Below, piece by piece: positions 47,303 to 52,058 of a DNA stretch of 64,000 nt (positions within the stretch are counted from its first letter, which is position 1; each line of letters begins with the position of its first letter). The stretch comes from Alphaproteobacteria bacterium. Its GTDB lineage: Bacteria; Pseudomonadota; Alphaproteobacteria; Micropepsales; Micropepsaceae. The notes beneath the pieces are model-generated. The model did no database searches. It saw nothing but the letters and a program-made list of their open reading frames with translations, and was not told the origin of the DNA. Position numbers and translations under genes: made by a program. The DNA lies in the NCBI GenBank assembly GCA_947467345.1, contig CANIHD010000002.1, positions 1 to 64,000 of the forward strand, in the 5' to 3' direction.

Positions 47303-47336
47303 AAAAAGGGCGGCGAAGCTTTCGCTGCGCCGCCCC
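47303..47336 (-). terminator. Rho-independent terminator of the cold-shock gene
   Basis: On the minus strand GGGCGGCG pairs with CGCCGCCC around a short AGCGAAAGCTT loop, followed by TTTTT. It lies 22 bases after the csp stop and before GST. Confidence 0.85.
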
Positions 47337-47358
47337 GAAAGCAAGAATTTTAGCGCTT

Positions 47359-47562
47359 CTATGAGGCGCGGAGATTGACCGCCTTGGCGCCGCGCGCGTC
47401 CGGCTGAACATCGAAGGACAGCTTCTGTCCCTCGTTCAGCGTGCGCATGCCCGCTGCTTCAACGGCTGTCGCATGGACAAACACGTCCTTGCCGCCGTCT
47501 TCCGGTGAAATGAAGCCGTAGCCCTTCACCGTGTTGAAAAACTTTACCGTTCCGATAGCCAT
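47359..47562 (-). CDS. CspA-family cold-shock protein
   Basis: 67-residue OB-fold RNA/DNA-binding protein: GTVKFFNTVKGYGFISPEDGGKDVFVHATAV contains both RNP motifs (KGYGFI and VFVHATAV), followed by LNEGQKLSFDVQPDARGAKAVNL. ATG 47562 follows GGGAG. The upstream region is long and may hold a regulatory leader; a strong terminator follows. Which csp paralogue it is cannot be told. Confidence 0.95.
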   Translation of the reverse strand: MAIGTVKFFNTVKGYGFISPEDGGKDVFVHATAVEAAGMRTLNEGQKLSFDVQPDARGAKAVNLRAS

Positions 47563-47953
47563 GTTCGCTCCCACTGAATCATGAACCCCCGCGGCGACAT
47601 TGCCGTGGCGCTTACGTTGGCGGTCCGTTTCAGAAGGAGCTGTCTCGTCCAGGCGCGCAGAGGCGGAATGGAGGCAAAAACAGGCGCGCTTCACCGGACT
47701 TAATTACCCTCGTGACAAGAACGGTGTCATAGAAACGCCGTTATTTCAATACTCCGGAAAGGTACGCGCCACCTTCGTTAGCGAGTCGATGCTCGCCCGC
47801 TAGGCATCGGAAATATTTACGAAAAATGCATTCGAGCGCACTGAGATATCGAACTTTCGCGCTAGTGGCACACGGTGTTCCGCTAGCGGTGGGTACGCGG
47901 AACGCACCCCACGTATGTTGCGCCGGCCTGTGGTATGGTTTGTGGAAAGACGA
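47563..47953. other. Intergenic region between the divergent csp gene and the paralogue pair
   Basis: 391 bases with no convincing gene. It must hold the promoters and leaders of csp (minus) and of the secreted-protein pair (plus). I see a GTTCCG/CGGAAC inverted repeat near 47877-47903 and an AT-rich stretch near 47695-47720. A cold-shock leader RNA on the csp side is plausible but unproved. Confidence 0.4.
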
Positions 47954-48448
47954 ATGGAGTTCAGTTTGCGCAGGTTCGTGACAGCCAAATTTCTGATGTT
48001 TCTTTCGAGCTTAACGCCAGCCGTGAGCGGGGAGGCGAGCGATGCGCAGCGCTTCAGCACAACAGACGACAGCGCCAATCCGTTCGGGCCGTTGCTCGCG
48101 CGCAATCGCGCCACCGACCTCGGCGGTGTGCAGGCGGTGTGTGGCGGCGCCGATACGGCGACACGCGGTGACGCGCGCTGGGAAACCTATCCTTTGAAAT
48201 TGGAATTCACCGGACCGGGCGATGCCTATCTTAGCTTCGCGCATGTCTCGCTCACCGATCTTAAGGGGCAGGGCGTGCTCAGCGTTCGTTGCCCCGGTGC
48301 TTGGCTGCTGCTCGGTTTGCCCGCCGGTGAATACAAGGCGTTGGTTGGAACGCCGGGCGCTATGGATCAGACAATCGGGTTCGTTGTACCGCCGACAGGG
48401 CAGAAGACTTTGGTGGTGCGTTTTCCAGCGGCGAATACGGGCCGCTGA
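47954..48448 (+). CDS. Secreted protein of unknown function, paralogue 1 of 2
   Basis: 164 residues. Signal peptide to about residue 26 (RRFVTAKFLMFLSSLTPAVSG), then a domain of about 120 residues: GGVQAVCGGADTATRGDARWETYPLKLEFTG, VLSVRCPGAWLLLGLPAGEYKALV and PPTGQKTLVVRFP. The last part resembles carboxypeptidase-regulatory-like beta-sandwich patterns (LPAGEYxV). Two cysteines (VC.. and VRC) are shared with the downstream paralogue. ATG 47954 starts the signal peptide and has GGAAAG upstream; ATG 47915 is possible. I recognise no named family. Confidence 0.7.
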   Translation: MEFSLRRFVTAKFLMFLSSLTPAVSGEASDAQRFSTTDDSANPFGPLLARNRATDLGGVQAVCGGADTATRGDARWETYPLKLEFTGPGDAYLSFAHVSLTDLKGQGVLSVRCPGAWLLLGLPAGEYKALVGTPGAMDQTIGFVVPPTGQKTLVVRFPAANTGR

Positions 48449-48461
48449 AAAGGGGGGGGAT

Positions 48462-48923
48462 ATGAACGCACGATTTTTTCATGCGGCGATGTTGGTTGTT
48501 GCATACGCAGTGCCCGCTCGAGCCGCCGAAATAAATGCGACGCCACTCACGCTTGATCGCCCCGCCATGGTCAACAACATTGAAGTGGTGTGTACGGGCA
48601 TAGGCCGCGAAGTGCGCGAAGACCCGCGCTGGAACGCCTATCCGTTACGCGTTGAAATCGCCGGCAACCAAGGTCAGCTGCTTGGCGATGTGCGCGTCAC
48701 GCTTAAGCGTGGTGAAGAAGCGTTGCTGAGCGTCATATGCGGTGGGCCGTGGCTTCTATCGAAGCTACCGCAAGGCGCCTATCGCGTGACCGCTGAAATC
48801 CAGGGCCGCGTCGTCAACGTGAACGCGAATGTTCCGGCGACTGGTCAGGGCCGCGTCATCGTCCGCTTTCCCGAATTGGGCGGTGCGATCAGTCCGGAAT
48901 ACACACCGCCAACGACGCCGTAG
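48462..48923 (+). CDS. Secreted protein of unknown function, paralogue 2 of 2
   Basis: 153 residues with a signal peptide ending ARAA. It aligns end to end with the upstream protein: IEVVCTGIGREVREDPRWNAYPLRVEIAG, LLSVICGGPWLLSKLPQGAYRVTAEIQG and VPATGQGRVIVRFPELGG. Shared features are the two Cys, RW..YPL, LSV.C.G.WLL..LP.G.Y and P.TGQ...VRFP. It starts 13 bases after paralogue 1 behind a G-rich ribosome site, so the two are cotranscribed. It ends in a Pro/Thr tail. The repeat cluster follows its stop. Confidence 0.75.
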   Translation: MNARFFHAAMLVVAYAVPARAAEINATPLTLDRPAMVNNIEVVCTGIGREVREDPRWNAYPLRVEIAGNQGQLLGDVRVTLKRGEEALLSVICGGPWLLSKLPQGAYRVTAEIQGRVVNVNANVPATGQGRVIVRFPELGGAISPEYTPPTTP

Positions 48924-48925
48924 TT

Positions 48926-49108
48926 CGTCATCCTTCGAGTACATTCCCAAAGTTGTTATGGTTCCCCATTGTCATGGCCCGGCTTGACCGGGCCATCCAG
49001 CGCTCACGCGTCCGCGTGAGCCATAGAGTCCATGATCACCTGGAGGGCCCGCTTTCGCGGGCCATGACAGAGACGAGACGCGCGCTGCGCGCGCTCCTCA
49101 GGATGAGG
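48926..49108. repeat. Family A repeat (A5) interrupted by a family B copy
   Basis: The left A start TCATCCTTCGAG (48926-48937) is separated from the rest of the left half (GAGACGCGCGCTGCGCG then CTCCTCAGGATGAG, up to 49107) by about 135 bases that contain the complete B2 element. The bases CGAG occur on both sides of the interruption, like a short target-site duplication. Confidence 0.7.
48970..49069. repeat. Family B palindromic repeat, copy B2 (100 bases)
   Basis: Ends are perfect inverted repeats (TGTCATGGCCCG/CGGGCCATGACA). Internal hairpins are GGCCCGGcttgaCCGGGCC, CTCACGCGtCCGCGTGAG and GGCCCGCtttcGCGGGCC. It is in the opposite orientation to B1 and B3. Confidence 0.85.
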
Positions 49109-49120
49109 GCGACCGCACCA

Positions 49121-51397
49121 TCAGCGCGCGAGAGGTGGCGTGCGCGTCGATTTGCTTTTCCCTTTGATCGACCGCGTGCCGCCGCGCCCCTTGGTCGAAC
49201 GCGGCTTGCCTTCGGCAAAGGCGGCATCGACAGCGCCGTCGACCGCCGACTGCCGCGCATAGGGATCGTCAGCAATGGCCAGCTCGGTCACCTGCAGGCG
49301 CTTGATCTCGTCGCGCAGCCGCGCCGCGTCTTCGAATTCGAGATCGCCTGCCGCCTGACGCATGCGCTTCTCCAACTCCGTGATGTGGGCGCGCAGATTG
49401 TGCCCGATCGGAACCGGATCGTCGGCGAAGCCACTTTCGACCAGCACATGATCGCGCTCATAGGTCGAGCCCATGATGTCGGCGATGCGATTCTTGATAC
49501 TGGACGGCGTAATATTGTGCTCGCGATTATAGGCTTCCTGCCGCGTGCGGCGGCGTGACGTCTCCGCCATCGCGCGCTCCATCGAGCCGGTGATGCGGTC
49601 TGCATAGAGAATGACTTTGCCGTCCACATTACGCGCGGCGCGGCCGATGGTTTGAATGAGCGAGGTTTCCGAACGCAGGAATCCTTCTTTGTCGGCATCC
49701 AGGATGGCGACCAGCGCGCATTCTGGAATATCCAAACCTTCGCGCAAGAGATTGATGCCGATCAGAATGTCGAAAGCGCCAAGCCGGAGGTCGCGGATGA
49801 TCTCGATGCGCTCCAGCGTTTCCACATCGGAGTGCATGTAGCGCACGCGGATGCCGTGCTCGTGCAGATATTCCGTCAGGTCTTCAGCCATGCGCTTGGT
49901 CAGCGTCGTCACCAGCGCGCGATACCCGGCCTTCGCGATGCGTTTGCATTCGGACAACAGATCATCGACCTGATGTTCAACTGGGCGGATTTCCACCGGC
50001 GGATCGATCAGCCCGGTGGGGCGGATCACCTGCTCGGTGAACACGCCGCCGGTGCGTTCCAATTCCCAGCGCCCGGGTGTCGCCGAAACCGAAACGGTTT
50101 GCGGCCGCATCATATCCCATTCCTCGAATTTCAGCGGACGGTTGTCGATGCAAGACGGCAGGCGGAAACCGAATTCCGCCAGCGTTGCTTTACGCCGGAA
50201 GTCGCCCTTAAACATGGCGCCGATTTGCGGAACGGTGACATGGCTTTCATCGACGAATACCAAGGCCTCATCGGGCAGATATTCGAACAAAGTCGGCGGC
50301 GGTTCGCCCGGTTTGCGCCCCGTGAGCCAGCGCGAATAGTTTTCGATGCCGGCGCAAGAGCCGGTGGCTTCGATCATCTCGAGATCGAACAATGTACGCT
50401 GCTCCAGACGCTGCGCTTCCAGAAGCTTGCCGTTGGCGCGAAACCAATCGAGCCGCTGACGCATCTCCTCGCGCAGGCCTTTTACCGCCTGCGCCAGCGT
50501 GGGACGCGGCGTCACATAATGCGAATTGGCGTAAATCTTCACCGATTCCAACTCGGCGGCTTTTTTCCCCGTTAGCGGATCAAACTCCGAGATCATCTCG
50601 ACTTCGTCGCCGAACAGCGCGATGCGCCAGGCGCGGTCTTCATAGTGGGCGGGAAAGAGATCGATGGTGTCACCGCGCGCGCGGAAAGCGCCGCGCGTGA
50701 AAGCATCGTCATTGCGCCTGTATTGCAGCGCCACCAATTGCTGCAGCAGATCGGCGCGGTTGAGGCGTTGCCCGCGTGAAATCGTGATGGCGGTGCCGGA
50801 ATAGGTCTCCACCGACCCAATGCCGTAAATGCACGACACCGAGGCTACGATGATGACGTCGTCGCGTTCCAGAATCGCCCGCGTCGCGGCGTGGCGCATG
50901 CGGTCGATCTGTTCGTTGATGGAGGAATCTTTTTCGATATAGGTGTCGGTGCGCGGTATATAGGCTTCCGGCTGGTAGTAATCGTAATAGGAGACGAAAT
51001 ACTCCACCGCGTTTTCCGGGAAGAAACTTTTCATCTCGGAATAAAGCTGCGCCGCAAGTGTTTTGTTCGGCGCCAGAACGAGTGCCGGGCGCTGCAATTC
51101 TTCAATGACTTTCGCCATCGTGAAGGTCTTGCCGGAGCCGGTGACGCCGAGAAGAACCTGATCGCGTTCGCCGCCGCGCGCGGCCTCGACAAGTTCCGCG
51201 ATCGCGGTCGGCTGGTCGCCGGCGGGTTTGTACTCGGACACGAGCTTGAAACGGCGTCCGCCTTCGCTCTTCTCCGGGCGGTCAGGGCGATGCGGTACGA
51301 ACGCCGTCAGCTCGGCGCCGCTCAGCCCGCGGAAAGCCGCTGGTGCTTCTTCCATGCCCGAAACCGGCCGGAATGCAGGTCCGTTATTGTGTCCCAT
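49121..51397 (-). CDS. uvrB: Excinuclease ABC subunit UvrB
   Basis: Damage-verifying helicase of nucleotide excision repair, 758 residues. Walker A is [18 protein letters not shown]; the beta-hairpin region is [27 protein letters not shown]-like motif is [10 protein letters not shown]; motif VI is [11 protein letters not shown]. The C-terminal UVR motif ([16 protein letters not shown]) is followed by a basic Lys/Ser/Thr tail common in Alphaproteobacteria. I use ATG 51397 (MGHNNGPAF); the frame to 51607 upstream runs through another gene. Confidence 0.96.
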
Positions 51398-51447
51398 GAG
51401 GCCAATATAGGTGGGATTCGGCCAGTGCCAATGTTCCGCGGCGGTGT

Positions 51448-52058
51448 CTAACGGGCGAATTGCCGGTAGAGCGCGCGTGTCACCCAGCCCAGCGCGAAGG
51501 CACCTAAGGCGCCGCCGCCCGCCGGCAGCAAATAGCCGAAGACGAGTGTTTTTGCGGTGTCGGCCCGGCCGAAGCTTTGTTCCATGGCGCTGCCCCATAG
51601 GGCGCAAGGCGTTGCGGCGGTTTCCACGGCTGCGACGCAGACATCTGGACGGTCGCCATCACCAGCAGAATCGGCAGCAGCAAAGCGATCAAGGGAAGAA
51701 ACAACGCACTGATGCCGGCGCGTAAGGGTCGTGCCGCTAACGCTGCGGCCAGCGCAGCGATGGTCGTGAGAGTCGGTGTCAGTACGAAGCCCGCGCCGAC
51801 CAGCCAGGAAAGGTCCAGAAAATCCTTGAGCGCGGGTCCCAGCCCGTTATCGAACAAGGTGTCGAAACATGCCGTGGGTCCAGGTTGGCAATCCGTTGCG
51901 AAGGCAGCGGCGCGTACTACCCAAGCCAGAAGCACGGGCGCGATCATCAGGCTCGCAGCTGCCCACCAAACACGGTCCATGGCGAAAGTGAACGGACCCT
52001 GCGGCACAGGTTCCGGCCCAGACTCTTCAGGCGGAGATGAATCCTGCTTATCGCTCAT
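51448..52058 (-). pseudogene. Small polytopic membrane protein gene, apparently frameshifted
   Basis: The first frame from 52058 gives MSDKQDSSPPEESGPEPVPQ, a helix (WWAAASLMIAPVLLAWVVRAAAF), a Cys-containing loop (TDCQPGPTACFDTL) and two more helices ending [11 protein letters not shown]. It then continues into an unlikely tail (stop at 51504). The neighbouring frame from about 51650 gives [19 protein letters not shown], then [26 protein letters not shown], a convincing last helix and basic end, with a stop at 51448. One missing or extra base near 51645-51655 would restore the reading. I recognise no family. Confidence 0.6.

Follow-up and report, generated by a model that had tools for sequence, protein, structure and literature searches.

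A TGTC-tagged REP pair among A-type palindromes in the spacer between uvrB and a convergent gene in a Micropepsaceae genome

A spacer made of repeats

The window considered here, meaning the whole stretch of 64,000 nucleotides that was analysed, comes from an alphaproteobacterial genome of the family Micropepsaceae and contains, between two convergent genes, a spacer occupied almost wholly by repeat elements. Two kinds of element, here called A and B, make up most of it, and a search of Rfam gave no match for either of them. The features are the following:

48222-48923, plus strand: ORF flanking the spacer on the left and ending at 48923
48924-49120, no strand assigned: intergenic spacer of 197 nt
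48928-48939, plus strand: 5' arm of an A-type palindrome, TCATCCTTCGAG, lacking the ACGCGC continuation of other copies
48944-48961, plus strand: TTCCCAAAG tract and TTGTTATGG, remnant of a second B-type REP head (compare the A-arm/B junctions of L007 and L002)
48962-48969, plus strand: C-rich, G-poor tract TTCCCCAT, which precedes the head in most B copies
48970-49069, plus strand: B, an inverted pair of TGTC-tagged REPs, tags outward, with a spacer that has its own hairpin
49070-49077, plus strand: purine-rich tract GAGACGAG 3' of B, its final four bases being the right CGAG copy
49074-49108, plus strand: rest of the A-type palindrome, with the inner hairpin and the 3' arm CTCCTCAGGATGAGG and without a 5' arm of its own
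49121-51607, minus strand: uvrB, flanking the spacer on the right, with UvrB domains found

Outside the spacer, the Rfam search also matched the cspA thermoregulator at 47305-47742 on the minus strand, weakly (26 bits, against a gathering score of 78) and in overlap with a cold-shock-like ORF.

The B element is 100 bp long and runs from TGTCATGG to CCATGACA. Its REPs are laid out as TGTC-ATGGCCCGG-CTTGA-CCGGGCCAT-CCA, that is, a terminal tag followed by a stem starting with AT, its terminal inverted repeats read TGTCATGGCCC/GGGCCATGACA, and an internal hairpin lies within the REP pair (DNA fold z = -6.5). About 17 copies with the same ends occur in the own genome and the copies of its relatives share them, and ends and heads are constant in nearly all of the 53 copies gathered from five genomes of the genus; the copy at the site is whole and shares 96% identity with the own-genome consensus. 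The 106 flanks of these 53 copies, taken together, carry a C-rich, G-poor tract outside the TGTC tag on either side of B, 4-8 nt away from it, with G at 2-9% and C at 39-59% over positions -8 to -4, and a CT cleavage motif within this tract did not significantly exceed base composition (p 0.06). At L010, L012, L014 and L015, B takes a long form, extended by some 50 nt, in which a further hairpin segment (CGCCAGCGTGCTTCGCACGC) precedes the last head. The B copies of L002 and L003 match across ~245 bp, including an upstream hairpin resembling a transcription terminator, which points to a possible duplication of a larger block.

The A element, in turn, is a palindrome of ~43 nt, CTCATCCTTCGAGACGCGC..GCGCTCCTCAGGATGAGG (DNA fold z = -4.2), which exists alone in many copies and frequently pairs with its inverted form, A'. 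When up to 2 mismatches were allowed, its 5'-arm pattern matched at 75 sites in 2.49 Mb and the reversed control pattern at none, and TCATCCTTCGAGACG is read exactly at 25 sites of the genome.

The CGAG pair, the left junction and other mosaics

The original prediction held that a complete B copy had interrupted an A element and might have duplicated CGAG in doing so. The split of the A arm is indeed there, since TCATCCTTCGAG (at 48928-48939, two nucleotides to the right of the 48926-48937 first given) is followed after 134 nt by CGAGACGCGCGCTGCGCGCGCTCCTCAGGATGAGG at 49074-49108, in other words CGAGACGCGCGC...CTCAGGATGAGG, and both copies of CGAG were found, with the same 134 nt between them. 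An uninterrupted A would read TCATCCTTCGAGACGCGCGC...GGATGAGG, whereas the 5' arm at the site continues with TAC instead of ACG. B is whole within this interval, as described, but the insert is more than B alone, with 30 extra nucleotides on the left (TACATTCCCAAAGTTGTTATGGTTCCCCAT, 48940-48969) and GAGA on the right (49070-49073). On this right side, an internal tandem repeat, GAGACGAGAC, lies at 49070.

The reading of the CGAG pair as a target-site duplication of B was rejected, because the pair abuts neither of the B ends and because the 53 copies show no such duplication usefully above permuted pairs. The mean length of direct matches within a copy was 1.5, compared to 1.3 for permuted pairs (nominal p 0.05), 4-mers were shared across B in 40% of cases within a copy against 47% between copies, and in 6 of the 53 copies a CGAG lay no more than 12 nt from B's right end. 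Neither copy-specific palindromic similarity of the flanks nor extended flank palindromy rose above permuted pairs over all 53 copies. As regards the usual marks of a MITE, B shows the terminal inverted repeats but no target-site duplication at its ends, and the CGAG duplication is poor evidence for past mobility of the element.

A closer view of the 30 nt on the left shows that they read TACA-TTCCCAAAG-TTGTTATGG-TTCCCCAT and hold a second TGTYATGG head. The reverse complement of L007 reads CATCCTTCGAGATGCGCG-TTCCTAAG-TGTTATGG, where TGTTATGG is B's own end, the junction of L002 is arranged alike (TTCCTAAAG-TGTCATG), and a junction of A arm, TTCCYAAAG and TGTYATGG is similar in L001, L007 and L002 and weaker in L003. 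When the A arm was included in the match, no shuffle out of 2000 came up to the level of L007 and 0.05% of them came up to that of L002, and the 30 nt alone gave a best p of 0.006, not significant after ~33 comparisons. On these letters, the simplest reading is that the 30 nt would derive from a second REP head, of which a remnant adjoins an A arm, in a type of junction that other loci also have. With a left junction like that of other mosaics and a second REP head within it, the site lends no support to B having moved once, cleanly, into an intact A.

Such combinations of A and B recur elsewhere. Most B copies of the own genome have A arms no more than 100 nt away, and reading the loci by eye placed B between inverted 5' arms (L002, L003 and L004), inside an A (L007 and L010) or between the A and the A' of a pair (L012). 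As A arms accompany most B copies of this genome and the A-arm/B junctions recur, the site is one of several A/B mosaics and not one clean insertion. Exact nesting of B in A was found, within the family, at 2 sites, both of them in the own genome; a contig pattern scan for independent A-B nestings returned 30 loci, and the 11 that were read were mostly matches without repeats. At L187 (Xanthobacteraceae) and L190 (Bradyrhizobium), half an A arm stands beside a CGTC pair and the other half is missing. In the 3' regions of the uvrB orthologues of G002 and G004, too diverged for empty sites, neither A nor B was seen by eye.

Other palindromes are also involved. Seven B copies of G002 are central in a different, conserved palindrome (ATACCAACGGCC..GGCCACTGGTAT), moved or copied along with B, of which no clean copy empty of B was found in that genome, L246 retaining one arm only. 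At L140, L144, L148, L152, L160, L163 and L164 of G002, B centres a palindromic composite of ~160 bp whose ends read ATACC..GGTAT and whose arms are conserved; this is a candidate composite mobile unit, possibly adjoining TA. In the same genome, a short GC-rich hairpin (CCCCGCACGTGATGCGGGG) sits within the loop of a B REP hairpin at L258/L263 (C19, ~81100-81280), which is another palindrome nested at a hairpin tip.

Spread of B and origin of the site

With one genome per species compared, the nearest neighbour of a B copy lay in the same genome for 11 of 11 copies in G000, 15 of 17 in G001 and 16 of 17 in G002, and B identity was 88% within G000 and 72-74% to the other two. This clustering by genome indicates lineage-specific spread or homogenisation of B, and gene conversion could also produce it. 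The proposal that B is or was mobile keeps much of its support in the constant ends, the dispersed copies, the clustering and the positions in or beside A palindromes at several loci, and loses the part that leaned on CGAG; B, or units that carry it, were probably mobile in the past.

Mobilisation by a RAYT, another suggestion of the original prediction, has no visible enzyme. The Y1/RAYT transposase family PF01797 had no match in G000, G001 or G002, the own genome and its two most B-rich relatives, whose completeness was scored at 96% for the own genome and only 63% for G001. Y1 enzymes occur in 32 of the 96 genomes of the family. Among transposase loci, those of the Y1 type (PF01797) were the ones examined, and none of 30 in the family lies between two B ends; as a Y1 gene framed by B ends, the best candidate, L213, proved to have a lone B-like dimer ~400 bp off. 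The spread of B would correspond to transposition in trans rather than to gene conversion, with an enzyme that may have been lost or may be unrelated.

Taken as a whole, the most probable explanation is in our opinion that B, with its two inverted TGTC REPs of the CGTC superfamily and their tags facing outward, is a small, non-autonomous palindromic repeat that probably spread in the past of the lineage. It would have gathered at gene 3' ends, frequently within A-type palindromes or next to them. The stretch 48924-49120 would be a mosaic in which the 5' arm of an A is followed by a decayed additional REP head, a complete B and the remainder of an A palindrome, presumably built by one or more REP additions and small rearrangements, and the two-sided CGAG would be A sequence overlapping B's own purine-rich flank, with no insertion duplication. 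Against such a mosaic, the two A pieces follow each other in an order and orientation that fit one interrupted A, a 4-nt overlap would be rare without duplication, and the junction homology over the 30 nt alone is modest. The first two points are also what recommends a single insertion, in which a unit of ~134 bp (B, the 30 nt to the left of it and GAGA to the right) entered an intact A and duplicated CGAG in the way of a DDE-moved MITE: the A pieces are complementary, in the right order and orientation, and overlap by exactly 4 nt, which without duplication would happen by chance in about 2% of cases (in 1.8% of simulations of a single uninterrupted A, the pieces seemed to overlap by 4 nt or more). 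This figure is the best argument for the original prediction, yet it concerns one site chosen by eye. A unit with these ends appears in no other copy, B is not abutted by CGAG, target-site duplications are lacking throughout the 53 copies, the 30 nt hold a second REP head as at other junctions, and no linked transposase had been noticed in the window, so we regard a single insertion as unlikely.

An origin without any transposition at the site, with independent, decayed A and B fragments joined by deletion, slippage and recombination between repeats, would suit the abundance of both kinds of fragment near gene 3' ends, the lone A arms beside CGTC REPs at L187 and L190 and, in the own genome, at L003 and L009, and the internal tandem repeat at 49070. 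We consider it rather unlikely, since a B that is complete and so close to its consensus must have arrived, or been renewed, fairly recently. It is also conceivable, albeit quite unlikely, that pairs of CGTC REPs travelled in the form of single-stranded hairpins, entering the hairpin tips of other palindromes (A, or the ATACC palindrome of G002) at single-stranded, C-rich tracts and leaving no target duplication, by means of an enzyme now absent from these genomes. The mosaic explanation remains the one that we prefer.

Relation to known REP families

REPs of the CGTC type are typical of alphaproteobacteria and have no known transposase (PMC3733652). Both the mobility of these REPs and the enzyme responsible were questions left open at their first description, for which the genome-specific B families, the constant ends without target-site duplications, the C-rich tract and the recurrent placement in palindromes offer testable marks; the single site at 48924-49120 by itself adds little.

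B resembles the systems described in REPIN/RAYT work (GTAG REPs; Bertels and Rainey 2011, PMC3116915) in having inverted REP pairs that spread within a genome, but it does not belong to them: its tag is TGTC and not GTAG, and its genome has no cognate RAYT. The likeness is much closer to the CGTC-tagged REP superfamily (Di Nocera et al. 2013, PMC3733652), with which B shares the TGTC tag, a 9-bp stem starting with AT, a loop of 4-5 nt and the CCA tail, as well as multicopy inverted dimers downstream of genes, an alphaproteobacterial host and the lack of a dedicated or linked transposase. It differs from that superfamily as a 100-bp version with a genus-specific spacer hairpin, in the C-rich tract outside both tags, and in dimers lying among A-type palindromes.

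REP dimers lying within palindromes have also been published (PMC3733652), as in CGTC-1 of Halothiobacillus neapolitanus and GTAG-15 of Anabaena variabilis (section 7 of the same work), where the dimer is inside a longer palindrome as it is here; in our case, the outer palindrome A also stands alone in many copies and the break is off the exact centre. Both this nesting and the missing CGTC transposase are already in the literature. The kind of element is likewise already known; what is added to it, modestly, is the C-rich tract outside the tags and the position within other palindromes.
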